A stretch of 35,425 nucleotides of DNA from positions 1-35,425 of IMG/VR virus record IMGVR_UViG_3300012002_000026; one strand, given 5' to 3'. Below the pieces are notes generated by a model. That model ran no database searches. It was given only the letters and a program-made list of their open reading frames with translations, and had not been told where the DNA came from. The stretch is from a virus. Positions 2,320 through 33,860 of this stretch are shown one piece after another (position 1 is the first letter of the stretch; the number at the start of each line of letters is the position of its first letter). The position numbers and the translations under genes were made by a program.

Positions 2320-3096
2320 ATGACACTCCCAGTCTACATCCCCTCGCTCGGTCGGTACGGCTCGTTCAATAATCGAACACTGGCCTGGATGCCCCTAGAA
2401 CACCCAGTACGTTTTGTTGTCCCTCCGGAAGAGCACACAAACTATGCTCGGAAGACCGAAGCGCCTGTCCTCGCCTGCCCCGAAAAAGGCATCGCTGCCG
2501 TGCGGCGCTGGATCGGAGAACACGCAGCTCGGCAGGGTGAACCATACTTCCTGATGCTGGACGACGATGTTCAGTTCTACCGGCGGCGAGAGAACAGCGT
2601 CTATTTGCGCAACGCCGATCAACCCGGTGACATGGAAGAATGTCTAGCGCGGGTTGAAGAGTTTCTCAAGGCAGGGTACGCTGCGGTCGGAATCAGCCCG
2701 CGTGAAGGGAACAACAGGATTGAAGCACCCTACGCCGAGAACACGCGGCTCATTCGCGCGCTAGCGTTCCACACTGAACCGTTCCTCGCTTGCGAGCATC
2801 AGCGGGTGCAGGTGATGGAGGACTTCGACATCCTGCTCCAGTTACTGCGCTCGGGGCGACCTAACGCCAACATCTACGAGTTCGCTCAGGGGCAGAAGAG
2901 CACCAACGCACCCGGCGGGTGCAGCACGTACCGCACGCACCAGCTTCACGAGAAGAGCGCGCATCGGCTGGCAGAGTTGCATCCGAGTTTTGTCAAGCTG
3001 CGGGAGAAGCGCAACAAGACGGGTGGCGACTTCGGTACGCGCACCGAGGTGACGATCCAGTGGAAGAAAGCCTACGCAGAAGGAGTGAAGGGATGA
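2320..3096 (+). CDS. GT-A glycosyltransferase, TET-associated-glycosyltransferase-like
   Basis: 258 residues; ATG 2320 follows GGAGG. It opens with the strand VYIPSLGRYG (5-14), has a second strand RFVVPPEE (31-38), and a DDD metal site in YFLMLDDDVQFY (76-87), as expected for a nucleotide-sugar-dependent GT-A fold. Further on, VMEDFDILLQLLRSG and a GGCSTYR segment match the acidic and Gly-Gly-Cys blocks I associate with phage TET-associated glycosyltransferases, which put sugars on hydroxymethylated bases in phage DNA. No TET/JBP dioxygenase is visible here, so the hydroxymethyl group would come from the ThyA-like enzyme next door or from a gene outside the window. Ends in an ATGA overlap with that gene. 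Confidence 0.68.
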   Translation: MTLPVYIPSLGRYGSFNNRTLAWMPLEHPVRFVVPPEEHTNYARKTEAPVLACPEKGIAAVRRWIGEHAARQGEPYFLMLDDDVQFYRRRENSVYLRNADQPGDMEECLARVEEFLKAGYAAVGISPREGNNRIEAPYAENTRLIRALAFHTEPFLACEHQRVQVMEDFDILLQLLRSGRPNANIYEFAQGQKSTNAPGGCSTYRTHQLHEKSAHRLAELHPSFVKLREKRNKTGGDFGTRTEVTIQWKKAYAEGVKG

Positions 3097-4175
3097 AGAT
3101 TATCGACGCGCGGAACGTCAACGCAGCGCTGCCCGAAGGTATCCGCCAGCTAGAAACCTGCGGGATCCCGGAGCGGTCGCGCGCGGGTGAAGTCAAAGTG
3201 GTGCCCGGTCCCGTGACCACGGTGTACCGTGCCCCCGAGGAGCGCGTGCTGTTCAACGCGGCGCGGGACGCCAACCCGTTCTTCCACCTGTTTGAGTCTC
3301 TGTGGATGCTCGCTGGGCGGAACGATGTGGACTTCATCGCTGACCTGAACAAGAACATGAAGAACTTCAGCGATGACGATGTGACATTCCATGGTGCCTA
3401 CGGACATCGTTGGCGCTATCACTTCCAGATGGACCAGCTAGAGATGATCCACGAGTTGCTCAAGAACGCACCGTGGACCCGCCGCGCGGTCTTGACGATC
3501 TGGGATCCCAAAACTGACTTGTACCCGGAGGAGTGCGGCGCAGACCTGCCGTGCAACGATGTCGTTTTCTTCTGGCGGTCGCGCGGCGTACAAGATGAGC
3601 CAGACAAGCTGAACATGACGGTTAGCTGCCGGTCTAACGACATCATCTGGGGCGCTTACGGGGCCAACGCGGTCCACTTCAGTATCCTCCAAGAATACAT
3701 GGCGCGCGGGCTCGGCCTCCAGACCGGCACGTACTGGCAGGTGTCCAACAACTTCCATGCCTACCGTGACACGCTGGCGCCACTGCGCCATCTCTGGAGG
3801 GACGCGGCGGATGGCTATCGTAAGGCGGCGCGGGAGCCGTACAGCGCGGGCGAGGTAAAGCCCTACCCGCTGATGCAGGTGGACCGTGAGGATTGGGACC
3901 GCGACCTGGCGCTGTTCTTTGAGAACCCGATGGCCGTGGGGTTTGAAGACCCGTTCTTCCATCACGTTGCCAAGCCGCTCTGGGCGACGTTCCGCTCGTG
4001 GAAGAAGCACGCGGACCCGAACAGGTTTGAGAAGGCCGCGCGCTGCCTCTCGCGGTGTCGGGCGGAAGACTGGCGTCTTGCAGTCGGGCAGTGGCTGACG
4101 CGGCGCCACGCCGAGGCCAGCGCCAAGGGCAAGCCTCTACAGACGACACAGGGCGAGCTGGAGGATCTGCTATGA
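3093..4175 (+). CDS. Thymidylate synthase-family enzyme (dTMP synthase or dUMP hydroxymethylase)
   Basis: 360 residues from ATG 3093 (AGGAGTGAAGGG upstream). Clear ThyA fold: AYGHRWR (102-108), TRRAVLTIWDP (129-139), catalytic Cys154 in DLPCN, RSND (180-183), GAYGAN (187-192), and SNNFHAY (218-224) carrying the His/Tyr that bind the nucleotide. The His after the catalytic Cys in ordinary ThyA is Asn155 here. Asn192 aligns, with one inserted residue, to the Asn that reads uracil in ThyA; in dCMP hydroxymethylase that position is Asp. So dUMP is the likelier substrate. In phages with modified pyrimidines this family makes 5-hydroxymethyl-dUMP. Flanking genes favour that, but ordinary dTMP synthesis is not excluded. 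Confidence 0.85.
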   Translation: MKIIDARNVNAALPEGIRQLETCGIPERSRAGEVKVVPGPVTTVYRAPEERVLFNAARDANPFFHLFESLWMLAGRNDVDFIADLNKNMKNFSDDDVTFHGAYGHRWRYHFQMDQLEMIHELLKNAPWTRRAVLTIWDPKTDLYPEECGADLPCNDVVFFWRSRGVQDEPDKLNMTVSCRSNDIIWGAYGANAVHFSILQEYMARGLGLQTGTYWQVSNNFHAYRDTLAPLRHLWRDAADGYRKAAREPYSAGEVKPYPLMQVDREDWDRDLALFFENPMAVGFEDPFFHHVAKPLWATFRSWKKHADPNRFEKAARCLSRCRAEDWRLAVGQWLTRRHAEASAKGKPLQTTQGELEDLL

Positions 4176-4765
4176 ACACCGTGATGTACCTGTATGAATC
4201 AGGCGCGGTCAGCCGTTACCACACGGAACCGTTTCCGTCGCAATCAGTCGGGCAGCACACCTGGGGAGCGATGATGCTGGCCGATCAGTTGTTCCGCCCG
4301 CATCTACCGCGTGAGGTGTCCGATGAACTTCTCCGCGCGCTGCTTTACCATGACACGGCAGAGCGCTTGACTGGCGACACGCCCGCGCCGGCCAAGTGGG
4401 TTAACCCAAACCTGAACGAAGAACTAGACAGGGCAGAAACGGAGGTGTTCAACCAGAAACAAATTCCAAGGTTTCGCGACGATGACATGTTCAAACTGCT
4501 GATGAAGGCGGCAGACTACGGCGAGGCGCTGCTGTATTGCGCCAGCCAGCTCCACGCGGGCAATCGCTACGCAGAGAAGCCATTTCAGCGGCTACGCAAG
4601 ACGCTGCGAGACATGGCGTGTCGGCTTCCTGACTTTGCTTACGATGATGAGACGGAGTGGCGAGGCGCGCTCAACGGCTGCGGAAACGCTATCCGCGAAC
4701 TCGTGAATGAATCCATGCGGCTAGCGTACAAGCCGGTCAACTACTGCTGGGAGGATGAGAGATGA
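4172..4765 (+). CDS. YfbR-like HD-domain 5'-deoxynucleotidase / dNTP hydrolase
   Basis: 197 residues from ATG 4172, with GGAGG 7 bases upstream and overlapping the TS stop. The metal-binding set of an HD phosphohydrolase is complete: His29, His60-Asp61, Glu64 and Asp115. The block YHDTAERLTGDTPAPAKW (59-76) matches the YfbR signature, including the GD and the Pro-x-Pro-x-Lys. Arg15 corresponds to the substrate-contacting Arg of YfbR. The family dephosphorylates deoxynucleoside monophosphates; some phage relatives hydrolyse dNTPs to exclude a canonical base. Between a ThyA homologue and a polymerase it may remove dTMP/dTTP or dCMP/dCTP. The substrate cannot be read from sequence. Confidence 0.8.
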   Translation: MNTVMYLYESGAVSRYHTEPFPSQSVGQHTWGAMMLADQLFRPHLPREVSDELLRALLYHDTAERLTGDTPAPAKWVNPNLNEELDRAETEVFNQKQIPRFRDDDMFKLLMKAADYGEALLYCASQLHAGNRYAEKPFQRLRKTLRDMACRLPDFAYDDETEWRGALNGCGNAIRELVNESMRLAYKPVNYCWEDER

Positions 4766-5100
4766 GTGATATCATCAGTGATAGAAAGCACACAGCCCGA
4801 AAACGTCACACCTGTAATAGCTGTATGGGGTCAATTGAACCGGGAAAAACGTATTGGCGAACGCTTGTCAAAGATGGACCACGCGCCGTCTCATTCTGTG
4901 AGCATCTTGCCTGCCGTCGAGCAAGCGAGATTGTGGCTGCTCACCTACCTTTCGATGTTATCGCGGACGGGATGCCGCGCGTTTGCGAAATGGAGCCTGA
5001 AGAAATTGAGACGGTCGTGGCAGAGGATGGCGAAACAGCGCTCGCCGTGTGGCCAGGCCGTGCATACGGCTACCTTTCTGAAAAGGAGGACAACCAATGA
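4762..5100 (+). CDS. Small putative zinc-binding protein
   Basis: 112 residues; ATG 4762 overlaps the preceding stop. The N-terminal half has a Cys18-x2-Cys21 knuckle (HTCNSCMG) and a second set, Cys46-x-His48-x2-Cys51, with the spacing of a treble-clef or zinc-ribbon fold. In between is a small beta unit (GKTYWRTLV). The C-terminal half is acidic and probably partly disordered. Similar small phage proteins are found scattered without known function. Position within the nucleotide-metabolism run suggests an accessory role. Confidence 0.6.
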   Translation: MSDIISDRKHTARKRHTCNSCMGSIEPGKTYWRTLVKDGPRAVSFCEHLACRRASEIVAAHLPFDVIADGMPRVCEMEPEEIETVVAEDGETALAVWPGRAYGYLSEKEDNQ

Positions 5101-5588
5101 CCAACGACCAACACATCGTCTACATCAACTATGTTGCTAACGAGGACGCCGAAGGGCTCGTGGAAGCAGAGAAGAGCTACGCGGGCAGCTGGAAGAAGCG
5201 CGGCGGCGTTGGCGCGTTTATGATGTTGGCGCGCAAATGGGATAGGCTCGACGCGCGAGCTGAGAAGCACGGCTGGGACATCTTTGACGCGATCGCGCAA
5301 GACGAGCGGGCCGAAGGCGTGATTGATGACATCCGTGATCTGCGCCGTTACCTGATGCTGGTGGAAGCGGAGATGATAGCGCGCGGCGCGGTCGGCGCAC
5401 AAACGCCGCACCGGGATAACGCGGAGAAGACGCTGCCGCCAGCATCCCGCACCCCACCGTTACTGCCGCGTGAGTGCACGGCGAAGGAGTATGAAGACCT
5501 AGCACCGGTTGACCAAAAGAAGTACGAGTTCAAGAACGGACGCTACTGGCTGGCGCAGGTTCACTACGGGGATCGGGCGTCGCGATGA
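5097..5588 (+). CDS. Putative MazG/Nmad-like all-alpha protein
   Basis: 163 residues from ATG 5097 (AAAGGAGGACAACC upstream). Residues about 25-95 form a conserved-looking helical block: YAGSWKKRGGVGAFMMLARK, then WDRL, WDIFDAI and an acidic IDDIRDLRRYLMLVEAE. This pattern resembles phage proteins annotated as MazG-like pyrophosphohydrolases or the nucleotide-modification-associated domain 1 (DUF1599); these all-alpha folds bind nucleotides through acidic helices. The C-terminal third is Pro-rich with a short YEFKNGRYWL strand. If it is an NTP pyrophosphatase it could turn dUTP into dUMP for the ThyA-like enzyme. Family assignment is tentative. Confidence 0.45.
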   Translation: MTNDQHIVYINYVANEDAEGLVEAEKSYAGSWKKRGGVGAFMMLARKWDRLDARAEKHGWDIFDAIAQDERAEGVIDDIRDLRRYLMLVEAEMIARGAVGAQTPHRDNAEKTLPPASRTPPLLPRECTAKEYEDLAPVDQKKYEFKNGRYWLAQVHYGDRASR

Positions 5589-7555
5589 TGCAAGGTGATC
5601 TGTTCCCGCCGGAAAGCGACTGGAAACCGCCAGCCGAGTTACCGGGGTTTAGCGGCGCACGGCGTATCGGCCTGGACGTGGAAACCAAAGATCCGCAACT
5701 GCGCGACCTTGGACCGGGCAGTATGCGCGAAGGCTCACACATCGTCGGGGTCAGCCTGCACGTGCCGGGGTGGGGCAGCGCGTACTACCCCGTCCGGCAC
5801 GAGGCACCGGGGGCGAAGGTGTCCAACCTTTTTCCCCGGCAGATCTTCGGCTGGCTCGCGGAGGAGTTCGGTAAGTTTACCGGGGAGATAGTTGGCGCCA
5901 ACTTGCAATACGACATCGACTTTTTAATGTCGGAAGGTATCGACTTCACGCCCGACACACAATTTCTTGACGTGCAGGTGGCCGAGCCGCTGCTGGACGA
6001 GTACCGGTTCACCTACCGCCTAGAGGTTCTCGGACAGGAGTACGTTGGCGCGGGCAAGGATGAAGAGCTACTGAAGCAAGCCGCCAATGTGCTGGGCATC
6101 CCTCAGAAGGACATCAAGTCCAATCTCTGGCGCATGCCGCCCGAGTACGTCGGCCCCTACGCCGAGGAAGACGCCGCGCTGCCGCTGAAGATTATGGAGC
6201 TCCAAATCTTAGATTTGGAGAAACAGGGTTTAATGGAGGTGTTCCGGTGCGAGAGCGACCTCATCCCCGAGCTGGTGCGCATGCGTCGGCGCGGTGTCCG
6301 CATTGACGTGGAGAAAGCAGAGCAGGTCGGCGCACACGTGCGCGGGCTACGGGACAACTGGAAAGCGGAGATTAAGCGCCTTAGCGGCAAGCACCTGGAC
6401 CTGTGGGCAGCGGAAAGCCTTGGCCCTGCCCTAGAAGAGCGAGGGTTCCAGTTGCCGCGGACTGGCAAAACCGGGCAGTACAGCATCAAGAAAGACTGGC
6501 TGGAAGCCCATACCGACGCGGACGAGCTGGTGAAAGCGATCCAAAACGCGCGCCGATATGACAAGGTAGACAACACCTTCATCCAGGGGCACGTGCTCGG
6601 GCACCAGGTCAACGGGCGTATTCACTGTACGTTCAACCAGCTGCGCAGTGACGACAGCGGGACGATCAGCGGGAGATTCAGTTCGACGCAGCCGAACCTC
6701 CAGCAAATTTCCGCCCGCGACGAAGAACTAGCACCCATGATCCGGGGCTTGTTCCTGCCCGAGGAAGGCGAGGTCTGGGAGGCACTGGACTGGTCGCAGA
6801 TTGAGTTCAGGTTCCTGGTTCACTTTGCCGCTCAGATTGCTCGCTCGCACCAGTTCACCGGCCCGGCGGTACGCTCGGCTCTGGCCGCGCGGGAGCGGTA
6901 TGCGAGCGACCCGGACGCCGACTTCCACAAGATGTGCGCGGAGTTCGGCGGGATGGACCCGGAAGACAAGTTCGTCCGTAAGCGCGTGAAGAACGTCAAC
7001 TTTGGTAAGGTTTACGGGGCGGGGGCGCCCAAGATCGCCCTGACAATGGGCGTCAGCGAAAACGAAGCCCGTGACTTCATCCAGACGTACGAACGTGAGT
7101 TACCATTCGTCCCGGAGACCTATCAGGTCGCGCAAGACCGGGCGCGGCGGCGCGGCTTTATCCGCACCACGTTGGGGCGGAAAGCGCGCTTCCCATTCTG
7201 GGAGCCCAAGCGCGGCGAAGGCACCCCGCAGCTGTGGGAGAAAGCCGTGGAGACCTACGGTGAGCGCGGCGTGCGGCGGGCATACGTTTACCGTGCGCTG
7301 AACCGGCTGCTACAGGGCAGCGCGGCAGACCTGATGAAAGAAGCTATGCGCCAGTATGCGCGCTCCGACGCCTACAAGGTGCTCGGTCCCGCGCTGCTGA
7401 CCGTGCATGACGAACTGGCGCTTTCTCGGCCAGCAACCAAAGAAGGCGAGGAAGCGATCCAGGAAGTGCAGCGCATCATGAACACGTGCCTTAACCTGGA
7501 GGTGCCTATCGCCTCCGACCGTGAGTCTGGACCTAACTGGGGAGAAGTGAAATGA
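5585..7555 (+). CDS. polA-like: Family A DNA polymerase with 3'-5' exonuclease
   Basis: 656 residues; ATG 5585 overlaps the previous stop. An N-terminal DnaQ-like proofreading domain is intact: Asp31/Glu33 (GLDVETK), Asn106/Asp110 (GANLQYD) and Tyr192/Asp196 (YAEED). There is no 5'-3' exonuclease domain. The polymerase part has SGRFSSTQPNLQQI, motif A DWSQIEFR (402-409), the O-helix with Arg465, Lys469 and Phe473 followed by NFGKVYG, and motif C VHDEL (His608, Asp609, Glu610). Phe473 at the position of E. coli Phe762 predicts discrimination against dideoxynucleotides. This is the phage replicative polymerase. No helicase, primase or SSB is in the window. Its position between nucleotide-pool enzymes suggests it may have to accept a modified dNTP. 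Confidence 0.95.
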   Translation: MMQGDLFPPESDWKPPAELPGFSGARRIGLDVETKDPQLRDLGPGSMREGSHIVGVSLHVPGWGSAYYPVRHEAPGAKVSNLFPRQIFGWLAEEFGKFTGEIVGANLQYDIDFLMSEGIDFTPDTQFLDVQVAEPLLDEYRFTYRLEVLGQEYVGAGKDEELLKQAANVLGIPQKDIKSNLWRMPPEYVGPYAEEDAALPLKIMELQILDLEKQGLMEVFRCESDLIPELVRMRRRGVRIDVEKAEQVGAHVRGLRDNWKAEIKRLSGKHLDLWAAESLGPALEERGFQLPRTGKTGQYSIKKDWLEAHTDADELVKAIQNARRYDKVDNTFIQGHVLGHQVNGRIHCTFNQLRSDDSGTISGRFSSTQPNLQQISARDEELAPMIRGLFLPEEGEVWEALDWSQIEFRFLVHFAAQIARSHQFTGPAVRSALAARERYASDPDADFHKMCAEFGGMDPEDKFVRKRVKNVNFGKVYGAGAPKIALTMGVSENEARDFIQTYERELPFVPETYQVAQDRARRRGFIRTTLGRKARFPFWEPKRGEGTPQLWEKAVETYGERGVRRAYVYRALNRLLQGSAADLMKEAMRQYARSDAYKVLGPALLTVHDELALSRPATKEGEEAIQEVQRIMNTCLNLEVPIASDRESGPNWGEVK

Positions 7556-8112
7556 TCGTTTCCATGCACAATGCACCGCTGCCCGACCACCGCATCAAGA
7601 TGTGCGCTGAAGAAGGTATGATTGACCCGTTCGTGAGCACAAAGCAAGGCGACTTTCTGAGCTATGGGTTGTCGAGTTATGGGTATGACGTACGGCTGGG
7701 GGATGAGGTGGCTGAGTGGATGCACCAAGGCTTGCTAGACCCAGCGCAGGATAACTCCGGTAAGTTGGCGCGGAGTACGGTGCGGCCTGACGACGGGTTT
7801 GTGATGTCCCCCGGTGCGTTCGTTCTCGCCCACACGGTGGAGACCCTAGACATCCCGGCGAACGTGGTCGCTATCGTGCATGACAAGTCCACTTATGCCC
7901 GGCTCGGTATCGCGGTGCAGAACACCGTGCTAGAGCCGGGTTGGCGCGGACAGGTCACACTAGAGATCACTAACCACGCGCCACTGCCCGTCAAGCTGTA
8001 TCCCGGTCGCGGGATCGCGCAGATCCTGTTCTACGCCTCGTCGCCTTGCGACAAGGACTACGGGAGCGGCGGGCGCTATCAGAATCAAACTGGGGTGGTG
8101 GCGCCGCGCTGA
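7552..8112 (+). CDS. dcd: dCTP deaminase (possibly bifunctional deaminase/dUTPase)
   Basis: 186 residues; ATG 7552 overlaps the polymerase stop. Family blocks: SSYGYDVRLGD (41-51), DKSTYARLGI (111-120), EPGWRGQVTLEITNH with Glu138 at the same number as the catalytic Glu of E. coli Dcd, and a C-terminal YQNQTGVV that closes over the triphosphate. It turns dCTP into dUTP, or directly into dUMP if bifunctional like the archaeal DCD-DUT enzymes. No separate dUTPase is visible. Its product would feed the ThyA-family enzyme at 3093-4175. Confidence 0.9.
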   Translation: MIVSMHNAPLPDHRIKMCAEEGMIDPFVSTKQGDFLSYGLSSYGYDVRLGDEVAEWMHQGLLDPAQDNSGKLARSTVRPDDGFVMSPGAFVLAHTVETLDIPANVVAIVHDKSTYARLGIAVQNTVLEPGWRGQVTLEITNHAPLPVKLYPGRGIAQILFYASSPCDKDYGSGGRYQNQTGVVAPR

Positions 8113-11195: not shown

Positions 11196-11209
11196 GGGCG
11201 CGGTAGGTT
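11180..11209 (+). promoter_or_regulatory. Promoter P4 ahead of the NusG-like gene
   Basis: TTTACA at 11180-11185, an 18-base spacer and TAGGTT at 11204-11209. The -10 has the same TAGGnT form as P1 and P3. It overlaps the last codons of the HTH-zinc regulator. Transcription would begin near 11216, giving an unusually long (about 260-base) leader before the NusG-like start. Confidence 0.5.
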
Positions 11210-11238
11210 GCGGTACACATCCGAAAAAGCAGCGTTCA

Positions 11239-11385
11239 ACCCTATTAGGCCACGTGCGTCTAATAGGGTCTAATAGCGTCTGGAGATCAGGGTTTGCCTC
11301 GTCTCCAGGGGTCCCGTAATAGCGCGTGAATCCGATATCGGTATAAAACATAAAACTAAGGTTAGATGGTGATAGCTAATAGGGT
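11239..11385 (+). repeat. CTAATAGGGT repeat cluster
   Basis: Inverted copy ACCCTATTAG at 11239-11248, then CTAATAGGGT at 11260-11269, an immediately adjacent CTAATAGCGT at 11270-11279, TAATAGCG at 11317-11324 and CTAATAGGGT at 11376-11385. The first two form a perfect 10-base inverted repeat with an 11-base loop. The last copy sits inside AGCTA-ATAGGG-TAGCT. In DNA this looks like an operator array; in RNA the first pair is a strong hairpin. Confidence 0.7.
11280..11308 (+). repeat. Inverted repeat CTGGAGA / TCTCCAG
   Basis: CTGGAGA at 11280-11286 and TCTCCAG at 11302-11308, perfect 7-base arms with a 15-base loop. There is no T-run after it, so it is more likely an operator or RNA structure than a terminator. 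Confidence 0.5.
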
Positions 11386-11473
11386 AGCTCCAAAAGTCGC
11401 GGTATATAAGGGTTTTTGGCCCTATTGGGTTTATTGGCCTATATGGGTCTTCAAACTGACGCGGAGAATCCGA

Positions 11474-12019
11474 ATGGAGAAAAGTATGATGTTAAATTAC
11501 GGGCGGGCGCGGGCGTATACGCGCGCGCGTGAGGGATGGCTGGTCGTGCGCAGCGCACCGAAGTTCGTGGGCGTGCTTCAAGCGATGGCCTGGTGGGCAG
11601 GCGCTGAGACCTGGAAACCTGTCTATGCTGCCCGGACACGGGTAGGGAAGAACCGGAAGCCGGCGATCCGGTATCCGCCAATGTTTCCGGGCTACTTGTT
11701 CGTCCGAGCGGAAGACGTGGACGCGTTCAAGCGCATACCGACGCACCGGTATCATATCCTGAGGCTTGATGAGAATCGGTTCTTTGAGTTAGGGAGCGAC
11801 GTAATGACAGCGATTGCAGAAGAGGAAGAACGGATGTGCCAGATCGGCAAGCCGCCGAAGGCTGCGGAACAGTTTTCGGTAGGTGATTTGGTTCAGCCGG
11901 CAGGGAACCTGTTTGGGGAGCCGATGAAGGTTGTGTCTATCTACGGGAACACATTGGAGCTGGATTTGAATGGAAAACGGTTGTCAGTGGATGCAAATGC
12001 TGCTACAAGGGTTTCGTAG
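11474..12019 (+). CDS. Phage NusG/RfaH-like transcription elongation factor
   Basis: 181 residues from ATG 11474 (GGAG 7 bases upstream); ATG 11486 and 11489 are alternatives. The N-terminal NGN domain shows GWLVVRS (21-27), Trp-rich helix (LQAMAWWAGAETWKPV) and the hallmark PPMFPGYLFVRAE (68-80). The C-terminal KOW domain starts near residue 134: FSVGDLVQPAG, PMKVVSIYGNTLELDL. NusG-family proteins bind the RNA polymerase clamp and suppress pausing; specialised paralogues (RfaH, LoaP) let polymerase read through terminators at chosen operons. It is followed at once by a promoter, structured leader and terminator upstream of the terminase genes, so a role as late-gene antiterminator is the simplest reading. 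That function is inference. Confidence 0.82.
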   Translation: MEKSMMLNYGRARAYTRAREGWLVVRSAPKFVGVLQAMAWWAGAETWKPVYAARTRVGKNRKPAIRYPPMFPGYLFVRAEDVDAFKRIPTHRYHILRLDENRFFELGSDVMTAIAEEEERMCQIGKPPKAAEQFSVGDLVQPAGNLFGEPMKVVSIYGNTLELDLNGKRLSVDANAATRVS

Positions 12020-12040
12020 CCGATGAAGATCGGTTATACT
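12012..12040 (+). promoter_or_regulatory. Putative late promoter
   Basis: TTTCGT at 12012-12017, a 17-base spacer and TATACT at 12035-12040. The -10 equals that of the minus-strand promoter near 15580, and AAGGGTTTCG resembles AAGGGTTTACA of the other promoters. The spacer and -10 edge contain CCGAT-GAAG-ATCGG (12020-12033), which resembles CCGATATCGG at 11332. The -35 is weak, so an activator may be needed. It overlaps the stop of the NusG-like gene. The expected start is near 12047. Confidence 0.5.
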
Positions 12041-12046
12041 GAGCCG

Positions 12047-12173
12047 TGCATAATCCATCGTCATAGGGTGGATTCTGCGGGACTTCGTGAGGGCTCTACG
12101 GAGCGATGCCTCTGCCCGCCTCAAAACTCTGGCGAAAGCCGGGGGGTGGGCGCTATTGTCCTAAACTCAGCTC
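12047..12173 (+). promoter_or_regulatory. Structured late-transcript leader
   Basis: Three hairpins can be drawn by eye: AATCCA / TGGATT at 12052-12074 directly at the expected 5' end; GCTC-TACG-GAGC at 12093-12104, a UNCG tetraloop closed by C-G and supported by an outer GAGG/CCTC pair (12089-12092 / 12109-12112); and GGC-GAAA-GCC, a GNRA tetraloop, at 12131-12140. No credible gene lies here: the open frame 12023-12241 lacks a ribosome site and reads as low-complexity Arg/Ser/Pro. The region may be an antitermination-type RNA or simply a stable 5' UTR. Confidence 0.45.
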
Positions 12174-12232
12174 GACCACGGCAGCCGCGATTCTCCTCCC
12201 CGTCGCTGGCGCTGTGGTCTGGGCTTTTCTTT
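12174..12232 (+). terminator. Terminator-like hairpin between the late promoter and the terminase genes
   Basis: Left arm GACCACGGC (12174-12182), A, GCC, GCGA; loop 12191-12202; right arm TCGC, T, GGC, GCTGTGGTC (12203-12219). That is about 16 base pairs with one G-U and two single-base bulges. It is followed by TGGGC and the T-rich run TTTTCTTT at 12225-12232. It fits an intrinsic terminator except for the short gap before the T run. Placed after the promoter and before terS, it resembles lambda tR'. Confidence 0.62.
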
Positions 12233-12245
12233 GTCAGGTGATTTG

Positions 12246-12695
12246 ATGGCTGCTCAGAAGCGAGGTCGAGGGCGACCGACCAGCTATAGTGAGAGCAGGG
12301 CGACTACCATCTTAACGCGCATCGCTAACGGCGAAAAGCTGCGCGACATTTGCAGTGAAGATGGTATGCCGTCGGCTTCGGCAGTATGTCAGTGGGCGGC
12401 GGAAGATCGCGAAGGATTTTCTAAACGGTACGTGCGCGCGCTAGAAGCACGTGGTTGGTACTGGGCAGAAGAGATGGTGTCGATAGCTGACGGCAGCGAA
12501 GACACCGATTCCGATGCTCAACGCGACAAGCTGCGCGTGGAAACTCGCAAGTGGCTGCTGACTAAGCTGATGCCCAACCGCTTTGGTGAGCGTCAACAAC
12601 TGGAGCACTCTGGACCCAACGGCGGGCCGGTACAAACAGATGGCACAATCCGCGTTGAGTTCGTCCAGGCAACCGGCGACGATTCAGCTTCCTGA
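12246..12695 (+). CDS. terS: Terminase small subunit
   Basis: 149 residues from ATG 12246 with AGGTG 5 bases upstream. Residues 1-12 are basic (AAQKRGRGRPTSYS). A helix-turn-helix follows: ILTRIANGEKLRDICSEDGM, then PSASAVCQWAAEDREGFSKR. This arrangement, with GRPTSY at the start and a helical oligomerisation region (AEEMVSIADGSEDTDSDAQR) behind, is that of the phage terminase small-subunit-like family. It recognises the packaging site and feeds DNA to the large subunit. Its last 56 bases overlap terL in another frame. Confidence 0.85.
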   Translation: MAAQKRGRGRPTSYSESRATTILTRIANGEKLRDICSEDGMPSASAVCQWAAEDREGFSKRYVRALEARGWYWAEEMVSIADGSEDTDSDAQRDKLRVETRKWLLTKLMPNRFGERQQLEHSGPNGGPVQTDGTIRVEFVQATGDDSAS

Positions 12696-13860
12696 CGCGT
12701 TCCAGGATCTGTTCACGCCAGCCCGGTACAAGGCATTCTACGGCGGTCGCGGCTCGGCTAAATCGCACAGCTTCGCCACGGCGCTCGTTATCCAGGCGAC
12801 TCAGCAGCCGCTTCGCGTTCTGTGCTGCCGCGAAATCCAGCGCAGCATCAAGGACAGCGTGAAGCGCCTTCTAGACGACAAGATCGAGGAGCTTGGGCTG
12901 GGCAGCTTCTACACCAGCACGGACACGGAGATACGCGGGCGCAACGGCTCGCTGTTCGTGTTCGCGGGGCTGCGGACTAACCCGGACACGCTTAAATCTA
13001 TGGAGGCTGTTGACATTGCCTGGGTGGAAGAGGCGCACGCGGTCAGTGAGCGTAGCCTCAACATCCTGGTGCCGACGGTGCGCCAGCCCGGTTCAGAGAT
13101 CTGGCTTTCCTGGAACCCGAACAACCAGACCGACCCGGTAGACGCTCGGTTCCGGGATGGCCCGCCGCCCAACAGCATCGTGCGCGAGGTCAGCTACGCC
13201 GACAATCCCTGGTTCCCTGACGTGCTCCGCGAGGAGATGGAGTGGGACCGGCGGCGCGACCCGGACAAGTACCTACACATCTGGCTCGGGCACTATCAGA
13301 AGCGGTCCGAGGCGCGGGTGTTTCACAACTGGGAAGTCCGGGACTTTGAGACGCCCGAGGGCGCACGCTTCTACTTCGGCGCAGACTGGGGGTTCGCCAA
13401 CGACCCGACCGTTCTGGTGCGCTGCTTCGTGGACGGGCGCACGCTCTACGTTGACGCGGAATCTTACAAGGTAGGCTGCGAGATCGACAACACACCCGCG
13501 CTGTTTGACAACATTCCAGGTGCGCGGCGCTGGCCCATCACGGCAGACAGCGCGCGCCCTGAAACGATCAGCTACATGAACCGCGCCGGCTTCCGCGTTC
13601 AGTCCGCCAAGAAGGGTCAGGGCTCGCTTGAAGACGGTGTGGAGTTTTTGAAGTCGTTTGATATCGTAGTTCACCCTGACTGCAAGCACACGGCGGATGA
13701 GTTAAGCTTGTACAGTTACAAGGTGGACCAGCAAACGGACGAAGTGCTGCCTCAGCTTGAGGACAAGCACAACCACGTTGTTGATGCGCTGCGGTATGCT
13801 GTCGAGGGCATGCGCAATCGCTCCACCATGCACCGCCGCAAGATCAAGGGGCTGATGTAG
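12640..13860 (+). CDS. terL: Terminase large subunit
   Basis: 406 residues if started at ATG 12640, within terS; no good ribosome site is visible, and TTG 12655 is an alternative, so translational coupling is likely. ATPase: Walker A GGRGSAKS (35-42), Walker B IAWVEEAH (Glu130-Glu131), coupling motif LSWNPNN. The C-terminal nuclease shows FGADWGFANDPT with the first Asp, ITADSA with the second, and DKHNHVVDALRYA with the last acidic residue. Family: Terminase_3/PBSX type. It pumps DNA into the prohead and cuts it. Length is typical. Confidence 0.95.
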   Translation: MAQSALSSSRQPATIQLPDAFQDLFTPARYKAFYGGRGSAKSHSFATALVIQATQQPLRVLCCREIQRSIKDSVKRLLDDKIEELGLGSFYTSTDTEIRGRNGSLFVFAGLRTNPDTLKSMEAVDIAWVEEAHAVSERSLNILVPTVRQPGSEIWLSWNPNNQTDPVDARFRDGPPPNSIVREVSYADNPWFPDVLREEMEWDRRRDPDKYLHIWLGHYQKRSEARVFHNWEVRDFETPEGARFYFGADWGFANDPTVLVRCFVDGRTLYVDAESYKVGCEIDNTPALFDNIPGARRWPITADSARPETISYMNRAGFRVQSAKKGQGSLEDGVEFLKSFDIVVHPDCKHTADELSLYSYKVDQQTDEVLPQLEDKHNHVVDALRYAVEGMRNRSTMHRRKIKGLM

Positions 13861-15319: not shown

Positions 15320-15349
15320 GCAGGAGGCGGCCCTTAGGCCGCCTCCTGC
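15320..15349 (-). terminator. Perfect 13-base-pair hairpin at the stop codon of the leftward cargo gene
   Basis: GCAGGAGGCGGCC (15320-15332), loop CTTA, and GGCCGCCTCCTGC (15337-15349). On the minus strand the TAA stop of the cargo gene falls in the loop. The stem is very GC-rich, but neither strand has a T-run after it, so termination would have to be by hairpin pausing or Rho; it may instead protect RNA ends from both directions. Confidence 0.55.
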
Positions 15350-15540
15350 TCCAGGATCATCTTGGCTTCTTCAACGGCATCCTTTTTGCGGTTGAAGGGG
15401 TCGCTGACGATGTTGGTATCCCACTTCGCGGCGGCGATCCAACCGGGGCCATCGAAGAGTTCGTCGTTGCGGAAGACTTCGACGGTGTGGCTGCCGTTGG
15501 TGATCTCGTAGTGGCCGGCGGTGATCTTGCGGGTTTGCAT
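15334..15540 (-). CDS. Leftward cargo (moron-like) gene, 68-aa protein
   Basis: Reads against the late operon between portal and minor head genes. ATG at 15540 downwards, with GGAG 7 bases upstream and its own promoter (15578-15606). The product is a compact beta-beta-alpha protein: ITAGHYEITNGSHTVEVFRN (6-25), WIAAAKWD, then a helix KDAVEEAKMILEQE. It resembles small phage proteins with a strand-rich sheet and a C-terminal helix, but I recognise no family. Its own promoter, opposite strand and hairpin at the stop codon are the features of a moron, a gene inserted for expression outside the late programme. Confidence 0.72.
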   Translation of the reverse strand: MQTRKITAGHYEITNGSHTVEVFRNDELFDGPGWIAAAKWDTNIVSDPFNRKKDAVEEAKMILEQEAA

Positions 15541-30673: not shown

Positions 30674-31471
30674 ATGGCGAACCTGACCATCGCGAGTACG
30701 GAGCTTGTGCAAGCGGGTACGCTCACGGCCTCACACGAAGAGTCCACCATGCCGGCCAGCAACTTGCAGACTGATCCGCCGGATGAAAACTGGCGCAGCA
30801 CGAACCTGACGTCCAACATCATGCTTGACCTTGGGTCGGCTCAACCCATCAACCTTGTGTCGCTGATCGGAACGAATGCGCAGTCGGGTGATACCGTGCG
30901 GGTGCGCGCGGCGAACACCGAGGCAGACCTAACGAGCAGCCCTGGTTTGGACACAGGCGCGGTTAGCCTTTGGATTGAAAGCGACCTGTCGGACTGGGAA
31001 TACCGGACGTGGTATCGCTATTTTAGCGCAGCGCAGAATTACCGTTGGTGGCGACTGGACATTGATGCATCCTCCAACACTGACGGCTTCTTTGACGCAG
31101 GTGGGTTAATCGTGGACAGTGCTTACACTCCTGACATTAACGTGCAATACGGGTTTAGCGTGCAGCTACTAGACCCATCCCAACGCGCTACGATGATCGG
31201 TGGTCAGCTACGCGCATTGTCGCGTCCGGTTCGACGGCGGTTTGACATGACATACCAGTTCCAGAGCGAGGCGGACCTATACGACGGGCTGTTTAAGCTC
31301 CAGCGCAAGCGCGGCACAGCCAAGTCCGTCCTAGCGATTAAAGACCCGGAAGCCACGAACTTCGCCCACGACACTGCCGCTTATGGACTGCTGACGAACT
31401 TACGTCCTATCGTTCACCAATCCTTCAACCTCTTTGAAGCCCAGATGTCCGTTGAGGAGCAAATCGTCTAA
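30674..31471 (+). CDS. Tail protein with discoidin-like fold (inferred)
   Basis: 265 residues, starting one base after the preceding stop. Region 45-140 resembles a discoidin (F5/8 C) jelly roll: IMLDLGSAQPINLVSLIGTN, RVRAANTEADLTSSPGL, YRWWRLDIDASSNTDGFFDA. Such domains in phage tails bind carbohydrate. The second half (GFSVQLLDPSQRATMIGGQL, RRRFDMTYQF) is again beta-rich, like a distal tail protein. Assignment to tail tip is by neighbourhood. Confidence 0.58.
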   Translation: MANLTIASTELVQAGTLTASHEESTMPASNLQTDPPDENWRSTNLTSNIMLDLGSAQPINLVSLIGTNAQSGDTVRVRAANTEADLTSSPGLDTGAVSLWIESDLSDWEYRTWYRYFSAAQNYRWWRLDIDASSNTDGFFDAGGLIVDSAYTPDINVQYGFSVQLLDPSQRATMIGGQLRALSRPVRRRFDMTYQFQSEADLYDGLFKLQRKRGTAKSVLAIKDPEATNFAHDTAAYGLLTNLRPIVHQSFNLFEAQMSVEEQIV

Positions 31472-33057
31472 TGGTTGATTTTAACGCCGGTCCCGTCGTT
31501 GACCAAATCTTTGAGATCACCACGACCGAGGGCTTTTCGGATATTGCGCTTGGTGGTCCGAAGGGGACGTTCGGTCAATTCCAGACGCAGTATGCTGACG
31601 GCGAGGATGTGTTCTACAAAGAGCAGGCGACCCTTAGCGGCATATTCTACTTTGAGATTGGGCTGGCGACCTACAACGCAGGCACCAATACCCTGACCCG
31701 GCAGCAGGTGCTCCGGTCGTCTAACAGCGACAACCCGGTAGACTGGCCCGAAGGCACGAAAGACGTGTTTGCGGCTGCACCGGGAGGTTTAGTGTCGGCC
31801 CTACTTCAGACGCACATCGGCCCGTCCCGACCGGCTTGGCTGCCACCGGGCGGGCTGTGGGTGGATAGCAGCGTCACGCCGAACATCCTGCGACTTTACG
31901 ATGGCAACGCAGACACCACGCCCACGACTAACCTGAGCCAAGTGCCTGCGGACGTGGTTGGCGCGACCAGTAGTAACGTGACGTTTGATCTGTCCACGGA
32001 TTCGGTGCTGGAGGTAGAGCCGACCGGCGACCTTCAGATTGACGCGACAGGCTTGGCATCGGGCGACAACAACGCCGTTGCCTACATGATGATTAAGAAC
32101 GGTGGCTTTCACACGATCACGTTCACGTCAAAGTTTCTTTTTGAGGGCGGTACGGCGCCCGCGTTGTCCACTCCGCCGACCGTTAGGACGATTTCAGGAG
32201 GTGCCACAGAACAGCATATCATTGAGCTTTCTGACCTTGGCAATAATGGTGCTTTTAGCGTTCGCTGGAACAACACATCTACAAGGTTCTGGGTGCATAA
32301 TAGGACCGCCACGATATATGAGTATGATGTTGTAAATACAGGCACAGTTGGTGGCGGAGTCATACTTAATGCCACACTAGATTTGAGCAGCGATCTGAAT
32401 GATAATGGTAATATTGCAGCATTTCACATGAAGAATGACGGATCACGGTTTTGGATTGTGGAAGACAGAGGCAGTCCCCCATACAATTATTTTGAATATG
32501 ACACGACGACTGTTGGAACCGTGGCAGATGGAGTTTCAATTAGTGCCTCTAGCTCTTTAAATGTTGGTTTCCCACTAGCACTATATTGGTCTGACGATGG
32601 ATCAAAATTCTGGATCGCTAATTCTGCCGATGACCAGATAGAGGAGTTCATACTTAACACTTCGTTTACTCTATCAAATGGGAGAACGTTTCAAGGTTCC
32701 CGTAGTGTAACGGATACTCTCCCATTTGATATTTCATGGAAACCTGATGGTACACGATTTTGGATACTCGGAAGCGAATTTGGACCTCGTATATATGAAT
32801 ATACCCCGTCAGTTACAGGCACGGTAGTAAGTGGTATTACCTTGCAGGCAACATACAATTTTAATGTTAGTAGTTTTCCAAGGGGGCTCTTCTGGAGTAA
32901 TGATGGGTCAAAATTCTGGGTCACCGATGATGACAAAGAAATCAATGAATTTACCCCCGACAAAACCGAAAACGACGTGGTTGATGTCATCCAGTTAACG
33001 CAACGCGGAAGCGGCACGCTAGTCAGCACGGTCCTTGAGAAAAAGGTCTATCTGTAA
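31471..33057 (+). CDS. Tail fibre-like protein A with inserted beta-propeller repeats
   Basis: 528 residues. Residues 1-130 are nearly parallel to the next gene: MVDFNAGPVVDQIFEITTTE against MVDFKAGPIVDQIFETTTTE, then SSNSDNPVDWPEGTKDVF against SSNDDNPVDWPAGEKQVF, and WLPPGGLWVD against WLPVGGLWVD. Residues about 235-497 are an insertion of five repeats with the core DGS(K/R)FW(I/V), e.g. LYWSDDGSKFWIANS and LFWSNDGSKFWVTDD, the pattern of a beta-propeller (NHL/YVTN-like) blade. The C-terminal 30 residues (NDVVDVIQLTQRGSGT) return to the paralogue's pattern (NDFVDLLTLIQNGSD). Probably a receptor-binding or fibre protein. ATG 31471 overlaps the previous TAA. Confidence 0.72.
   Translation: MVDFNAGPVVDQIFEITTTEGFSDIALGGPKGTFGQFQTQYADGEDVFYKEQATLSGIFYFEIGLATYNAGTNTLTRQQVLRSSNSDNPVDWPEGTKDVFAAAPGGLVSALLQTHIGPSRPAWLPPGGLWVDSSVTPNILRLYDGNADTTPTTNLSQVPADVVGATSSNVTFDLSTDSVLEVEPTGDLQIDATGLASGDNNAVAYMMIKNGGFHTITFTSKFLFEGGTAPALSTPPTVRTISGGATEQHIIELSDLGNNGAFSVRWNNTSTRFWVHNRTATIYEYDVVNTGTVGGGVILNATLDLSSDLNDNGNIAAFHMKNDGSRFWIVEDRGSPPYNYFEYDTTTVGTVADGVSISASSSLNVGFPLALYWSDDGSKFWIANSADDQIEEFILNTSFTLSNGRTFQGSRSVTDTLPFDISWKPDGTRFWILGSEFGPRIYEYTPSVTGTVVSGITLQATYNFNVSSFPRGLFWSNDGSKFWVTDDDKEINEFTPDKTENDVVDVIQLTQRGSGTLVSTVLEKKVYL
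32170..32965 (+). other. AT-rich insertion encoding five beta-propeller-like repeats
   Basis: Hand count of six 60-base lines (32281, 32341, 32401, 32521, 32581, 32821) gives about 41% G+C (148/360), clearly lower than the flanking fibre genes. The repeats start at about 32256, 32412, 32578, 32728 and 32888. Two share 18 nearly identical bases, GATGGATCAAAATTCTGG (32596-32613) and GATGGGTCAAAATTCTGG (32902-32919). Both ends lie where the paralogue has only a short turn. Base composition and boundaries indicate a transferred module. Confidence 0.72.
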
Positions 33058-33860
33058 TGGTGGACTTCAAAGCAGGCCCTATCGTTGACCAGATTTTCGA
33101 GACGACCACGACGGAGGGGTTTGCCGACATCGTCCTTAATGGGGCCAAGGATCGCTTTGACACGTTTGGATCGGTCTACGCTGATGGCCAGTACGTGTTC
33201 TACCGCGAGCAGGCCATCGTCAACAACGCGATCACCTACGAAAACGGTGTCGCCACGTATGACGCAGGCAACAACGCGCTGGTTCGTCAGCAGGTTTTCC
33301 GTTCTTCTAACGACGACAACCCGGTAGACTGGCCCGCTGGCGAAAAGCAGGTGTTCACAAACGTCGCGGGCGGACTGGTGTCTGCGATGCTGGCAGGACT
33401 TCGTGGCAGTTCCGCACCAGCTTGGCTTCCGGTCGGTGGTCTGTGGGTGGACGATAGTAGCCAACCTTGGCAGTTGAAGGTCATAGAAGGCAGCGACGGT
33501 ATTGAGCTTCCGGGCAACCAAAGCCTACTAAGCTTACCCGGAAACGAAATCGGACAGGTTAGCAGTGACCTAACTTTGAACCTCGCCAAAACGTCGGTGT
33601 TCGCGTTTGAGCCAACTGCTGACATAGCGGTTGATGCTGCGAACCTAGCCCCAGGCAACACACGTGCTATCGCGCATCTGATGATTAAAAACGGCGGCGA
33701 TGTTAACCTGACCTTTGCGCCCAAGTTTGGTTTCGCGGATGACACCGTGCCGACTTTCTCGCAGTCTGGCACGAATGACTTTGTGGATTTGCTTACACTC
33801 ATTCAAAATGGCAGCGACGTGATAACCGTTAGCGCCGTTAAGCTAGGAGTGGTTCTCTGA
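33057..33860 (+). CDS. Tail fibre-like protein B (paralogue without insertion)
   Basis: 267 residues; ATG 33057 overlaps the stop TAA of protein A. It follows protein A along its whole non-inserted length (N-terminal DFKAGPIVDQIF, VFRSSNDDNPVDWPAG, WLPVGGLWVDD, and the C-terminal IAHLMIKNGGDVNLTF). The end contains a beta pair, FADDTVPTFSQSGTND and FVDLLTLIQNGSDVITVSA, where A has its propeller. Likely the base or adapter of a fibre; the duplication allows one copy to vary in the tip. Confidence 0.68.
   Translation: MVDFKAGPIVDQIFETTTTEGFADIVLNGAKDRFDTFGSVYADGQYVFYREQAIVNNAITYENGVATYDAGNNALVRQQVFRSSNDDNPVDWPAGEKQVFTNVAGGLVSAMLAGLRGSSAPAWLPVGGLWVDDSSQPWQLKVIEGSDGIELPGNQSLLSLPGNEIGQVSSDLTLNLAKTSVFAFEPTADIAVDAANLAPGNTRAIAHLMIKNGGDVNLTFAPKFGFADDTVPTFSQSGTNDFVDLLTLIQNGSDVITVSAVKLGVVL

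Follow-up and report, generated by a model that had tools for sequence, protein, structure and literature searches.

The window analysed here, the whole 35,425-bp virus record IMGVR_UViG_3300012002_000026, raises the question of how a phage that carries a NusG-like gene, a leader and a terminator-like hairpin directly ahead of its late genes turns those genes on. We consider it probable, judging from sequence, that the NusG paralogue is a late-gene antiterminator that lets polymerase past the terminator of the leader and on into the late operon (22 kb) behind the hairpin, with LoaP-like biochemistry and a Q-like role.

All recognisable genes of the window lie on the + strand, from replication and nucleotide genes (to approximately 11.2 kb) through nusG to the late block, which extends from terS to lysozyme and is broken only by one small opposite-strand ORF. 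The features on which the argument rests are the following.

11196-11473 (278 bp), no strand assigned: AT-rich intergenic region, a gap between ORFs with direct and inverted CTAATAGGGT repeats
11474-12019, + strand: nusG, phage NusG paralogue of 181 aa (phrog_6386, Pfam NusG, family profile, AlphaFold2)
11981-12009, + strand: sigma70-like site TTGTCA-17-TACAAG within the nusG 3' end, the top score of the window + strand
12035-12040, + strand: TATACT -10-like box without a recognisable -35, about 8 nt upstream of the folded leader
12047-12166, + strand: structured leader RNA, with a hairpin (12048-12078) and a multibranch part (12079-12162)
12089-12112, + strand: 24-nt hairpin GAGGGCUC(UACG)GAGCGAUGCCUC, its tetraloop C(UACG)G being of UNCG type (fold and motif scan)
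12169-12234, + strand: intrinsic-terminator-like hairpin (12169-12225) and U-rich tail TTTTCTTTGT (fold energy)
12246-12695, + strand: terS, the first late gene, for a small terminase subunit of Sf6-like type (PF20901, E 7e-31; phrog_1482)
12583-13860, + strand: terL, large terminase subunit (PF04466 and PF17288)

Several other features of the record were observed in passing. The 68-aa ORF on the - strand within the late operon (15334-15540) is moron-like and has its own sigma70-like promoter (15606-15578, TTTACA-17-TATACT). Two neighbouring late genes (31471-33057 and 33057-33860) have alike N-termini, MVDF.AGP.VDQIFE.TTTEGF, a hint that the start of a tail protein was duplicated. Proteins resembling glucosyl-HMC glucosyltransferase (phrog_842), the thymidylate-synthase fold and dCTP deaminase are encoded at 2320-4175 and 7552-8112, and these genes possibly form a modified-DNA pathway.

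A NusG-family protein ahead of the late genes

The nusG gene starts at an ATG with GGAGA upstream, and its product comprises an NGN domain (approximately residues 20-125) with the motif PMFPGYLFV and a KOW-like C-terminal part that is poorly resolved. The protein matched phrog_6386 ('transcription antiterminator') with E 3e-5 and Pfam NusG with 21.4 bits, slightly short of the 22.2-bit cut-off (23.1 bits in the genome search), while a profile made of the window protein and 21 phage relatives matched E. coli NusG (E 1e-29) and RfaH (E 3e-24), both over nearly the full length. AlphaFold2 predicted the NGN domain with a pLDDT of about 90, and the top structural matches in the PDB were RfaH and NusG chains. 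The identification of a NusG-like gene, made earlier from the PMFPGYLFV motif, is borne out by the PHROG match, the profile and the predicted fold, which together assign the gene product to the NusG/Spt5 family with a predicted NGN domain. The KOW domain claimed at the same time is weak in the window protein: the match of the family profile to NusG extends over the KOW region, and weak KOW matches occur in some relatives, whereas the C-terminal part of the window protein itself has no Pfam match and a pLDDT under 50.

Assignment to a named subfamily found no support among the curated models searched. The window protein scored 16 bits with the RfaH model (NCBIfam equivalog, cut-off 144.5 bits) and 14.3 bits with the LoaP model (NCBIfam, cut-off 125 bits), both below threshold, and did not match the UpxY and housekeeping NusG models; nor were close relatives of it present in the phages, viral_contigs or genome_contigs collections.

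Leader, hairpin and promoter candidates in the window

The nusG stop (12019) is separated from the terS ATG (12246) by 226 bases without a recognisable gene. A 72-aa ORF at 12023-12241 was rejected as a gene, as it has no family match and crosses the terminator; the start of terS in the ORF list is a TTG at 12231, in the same frame as the ATG. The leader, taken without the terminator, gave a fold z-score of -4.41, none of 200 shuffled sequences being equally stable, and the region of the terminator hairpin a z-score of -3.56. The terminator-like hairpin has 22 pairs in one fold (-33.4 kcal/mol) and is followed by TTTTCTTT (12225-12232); of the 198 terminator-like sites counted over the two strands of the window, no other reaches a hairpin energy so low. 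The leader and strong hairpin that had been read ahead of terS are thus confirmed, as is the T-rich tail, but with a pair count of 22 instead of the 16 claimed.

The tail, although T-rich, is interrupted and is not a pure T run, and its last T lies 13 nt before the terS ATG. A gap of this length is too short for a promoter between hairpin and terS, so that any transcript which includes the start of terS has to run through the hairpin. It might be supposed that the hairpin does not terminate transcription and is either a packaging signal or an element of the mRNA 5' end (a processing site, a stabiliser or a control on the translation of terS), given that it adjoins terS and its ribosome-binding site and that its tail is interrupted. 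We regard this as very unlikely: the T-rich tail follows the stem directly, canonical terminators occupy the same place in the PPF1-type phages described below, and a terminase of the Sf6/P22-like type belongs to headful packaging from a pac site, which in Sf6 lies within terS. A cos site is also unlikely, since the terminase is Sf6/P22-like.

Within the folded leader, the hairpin at 12089-12112 is a candidate recognition hairpin. UNCG-type hairpins with a stem of at least 4 occur only twice on the window + strand, this one included, and 1.65% of shuffled leaders contain one. The UNCG hairpin was not found in the relatives and was rejected as a general trait of NusG-bearing phages. Rfam had no match within the window, and no relatives of the window leader were present in the collections scanned. 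The locus L007, whose TerL is 80% identical to that of the window, differs in terS and in the region upstream, and is consequently of no use as a comparison for the leader.

Transcription of the leader had been ascribed to a TATACT promoter at 12012-12040. The TATACT box is present but is the weakest of the elements read there: its -35 position reads TTTCGT or TTCGTA and a scan for 9/12 promoter matches returned no site around it; a 5/6 match to the -10 consensus is expected by chance 0.05 times per 60 bp. A better site lies nearby, at 11981-12009, which ranks in the top 0.4% of 140-bp segments by consensus match and is a candidate late promoter. Either site could start the leader, or polymerase may arrive from upstream of nusG, where the gap at 11196-11473 is a possible nusG promoter or operator region. 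The repeats CTAATAGGGT / CCCTATTAG, both direct and inverted, at 11239-11448 upstream of nusG could be operator sites or an origin.

Gene order and leaders in related phages

Related phages had been suggested as a place to look for a conserved order of NusG gene, leader and terminator, and a NusG-like gene does recur ahead of the terminase on the same strand. A first TerL query gave 76 loci; 50 of these records, the longest of 72 kb, were searched over their full length with PF02357 and phrog_6386, and 13 relatives had matches, all of them on the terL strand and approximately 0.6-4 kb upstream of terL. With the profile made here and a second TerL query, 22 loci, the window included, had a NusG-like gene just upstream of the terminase; since these loci were collected through homology searches, they do not form a random sample. 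Queries with the NusG proteins of the relatives reached five annotated phages (Rhizobium PPF1, Sinorhizobium phi2LM21 and phi3LM21, Bradyrhizobium ppBjS10J-1 and Nostoc Nsp-JY10), and in 5/5 the NusG-like gene directly precedes the terminase module, non-coding DNA separating the two; the linear record of PPF1 is cut between nusG and terminase, and a few small genes intervene. A TerS query returned no relatives, and a portal query gave seven loci, none with a NusG gene, the modules being mosaic. In L062, L015 and L030 nusG is separated from terS by further genes, and the NusG proteins of L015 and of L030/L031 (at 1476-2498 in L030 and L031) carry long inserts between NGN and KOW.

The phages of PPF1 type form a family of 35 loci in which one conserved leader follows nusG; in 34 of the loci the leaders are distinct or nearly so. 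An intrinsic terminator stands at the end of this leader in 32/34 loci, against 40/192 for any such terminator in random 250-bp stretches of the same loci. It is typically GGCGGCCGAAAGGTCGCC with a T run, has the canonical build of a GC stem with a 4-nt loop and is located mostly about 170-190 nt past the nusG stop (outliers to 226 nt), and the first late ORF mostly begins 13-41 nt past the T run. The leader is conserved as a structure: among 24 aligned leaders, 21 cells were changed on both sides of a pair, compared with 4.0 +/- 1.8 after shuffling (0/500 shuffles as high), and in helix 1 the changes are compensatory at 5/7 pairs. The leader of this type also contains an invariant element, GUGC-NNNN-GCUAUG. 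The shuffles keep relatedness in, and sliding the pair partners likewise abolished the signal. A covariance model (R1) built here from the PPF1-type leaders, with the Nostoc phage held out, recovered the held-out leader with E 1e-12, and it detected a single leader copy per genome, beside nusG, in 23/24 records. L210 has a second, weaker copy (4679-4856; 5180-5346), and the terminator is missing after the first leader in L209 (4682-4817) and L210, the only two loci without one. Applied to the window with filters off, the model reached a best score of 1 bit, and the window leader was rejected as a member of this RNA family.

A second family, of Bradyrhizobium type (ppBjS10J-1 and four relatives), has a conserved element of its own, which is followed by a terminator in 3/5. 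The plan thus recurs with different RNAs. In L035, L037-L041 and L043 yet another conserved element, TTCGCCCCGACTACTGACA...GATCGCGGGCGAA, was observed between nusG and terS, just before terS, together with a motif CTTGCGCC...CGCAAATCA partly common to the ppBjS10J-1 group.

The single-copy conserved leader beside nusG and the fixed position of the gene in unrelated phages point to a target in cis. This argues against a host-takeover factor, that is, a paralogue that rivals host NusG genome-wide, for instance by blocking Rho or transcription-translation coupling, and whose position reflects only the timing of its expression. A single RNA polymerase site is common to all NusG-like proteins (PMC7819879), and the weak KOW of the window protein may mean that interaction with Rho or S10 is lost, both of which would suit such a factor; all considered, we find it highly improbable.

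A clear intrinsic terminator was not found in the nusG-terminase gap of L026, the L035 group, L041, L066 and L072, and phages that carry a NusG gene therefore do not all have the gate; low fold z-scores were obtained for the leaders of some lineages only, a generic structure across all NusG-bearing phages not being seen. Lineages without a clear terminator would be accommodated if the paralogue acted only as an RfaH-like processivity factor, displacing host NusG and guarding the late operon from Rho and pausing, with the hairpin as a leaky terminator of the early operon that is not specifically overcome. RfaH is described as rather inefficient at intrinsic terminators (PMC7819879), and among curated models the proteins of L026 and ppBjS10J-1 match RfaH best. 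The PPF1 protein, on the other hand, has LoaP as its best match (75.6 bits), and an incidental terminator would leave unexplained both the conserved single-copy leader and the short distance, 13-41 nt, from its terminator to the first late gene. We therefore judge a role in processivity alone unlikely, and retain antitermination at the leader as the preferred reading.

Promoter-like sites at the nusG stop, within the top 0.4-4% of the locus, were found in the window, L015, L030, L035, L038, L043, L020 and L128. The site straddling the nusG stop in L030 is TTGACA-16-TATAAT, and in L128 a TTGACA stands at the stop codon, with a 12-bp hairpin, its tail U-rich, 587 nt farther on. In L015 a perfect TTGACA-16-TATAAT occurs farther down, past an HNH-like ORF inserted between it and nusG (1014-1526). 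The PPF1-type phages have no evident consensus promoter and their nusG overlaps the preceding gene, and polymerase may thus simply continue from the early operon into the leader. Lineages may differ in this respect, some entering the leader in that way and others starting it from a separate, Q-like promoter.

A possible late-gene switch and its known counterparts

In the switch that we propose, RNA polymerase would start either ahead of nusG or from a promoter within the nusG 3' end, transcribe the leader (approximately 12047-12166) and stop in vivo at the hairpin (12169-12225), terS, terL and the remaining late operon staying silent as long as it does so. Once accumulated, the paralogue would bind the elongating polymerase via its NGN domain, recruited probably by the folded leader RNA, possibly by the UNCG-type hairpin at 12089-12112, in the way in which the dfn hairpin recruits LoaP. 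Polymerase carrying the paralogue would then pass the terminator and run along the operon.

The idea of a NusG paralogue in place of Q is supported because the arrangement recurs in unrelated phages and the PPF1-type leader shows compensatory changes, and because the terminators leave no room for a promoter and the Q families are absent: PF06530 and PF03589 had no match in the window and none over the cut-off in the related records searched. The sequence-only reading had described the geometry of lambda pR'-tR' with NusG for Q. Leader, terminator, recurrence and the absence of Q agree with that description, but a clear late promoter in the window does not emerge. As to its generality, we put at about even the chance that several unrelated phage lineages each use their own NusG paralogue with a dedicated leader and terminator as an early-to-late switch that replaces Q. 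On that same reading, housekeeping NusG would in such lineages have become an operon-specific late regulator, co-evolved with one leader per genome.

To our knowledge, none of the known phage antiterminators N, Q, p7 and put is a NusG paralogue. The known NusG paralogues RfaH, LoaP, UpxY and TaA serve capsules, antibiotics and conjugation. Gating of late genes by a phage NusG paralogue, if true, would join the fields of phage antiterminators and NusG paralogues, and would explain late timing in many phages that have neither Q nor their own RNA polymerase. Since each phage would bring a matched protein and leader, how NusG paralogues gain specificity becomes testable.

Among known systems, lambda Q with pR'-tR', like other lambdoid Q proteins, occupies the same place, as the last regulatory gene before the late genes, with a short leader and a terminator before the late operon and one target per phage. 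It differs in that the predicted fold of the phage paralogue is that of NusG and not of Q; for the late promoter of the Q system the window has candidate sites, and DNA-bound loading is a feature of Q. RfaH with ops and the plasmid-borne RfaH proteins (ActX, PrfaH) share the NGN fold, provide the closest solved structures and are examples of NusG paralogues of mobile elements in long operons; the ops element GGCGGTAG is absent from the window + strand. PHROG 6386 and the 'NusG' genes of PPF1, phi2LM21, phi3LM21 and Nsp-JY10 belong to the same family and stand at the same place before the terminase module, under names given by homology only. In the open-access literature searched, we found neither a functional study of a phage NusG paralogue nor a description of a leader RNA or terminator gate for these genes.

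HK022 put and Xp10 p7 are likewise cases of phage antitermination at intrinsic terminators. HK022 put works from structured nascent RNA and needs no phage protein. Xp10 p7 is a small phage protein of 7 kDa, and its fold is not that of NusG (PMC4513864).

The LoaP system of Bacillus velezensis, with its dfn and mln leaders, likewise uses a NusG paralogue for long operons (PMC12691694). Its read-through of the intrinsic terminator ahead of the first dfn gene requires a UNCG hairpin of the leader, to which LoaP binds (PMC12691694). The window system differs in that it concerns phage late genes, and its leader RNA may be unrelated in sequence to the leaders of LoaP. The leaders are alike in placing a UNCG-type hairpin upstream of an intrinsic terminator, and read-through of such a terminator, shown for LoaP, is what we propose for the phage paralogue.
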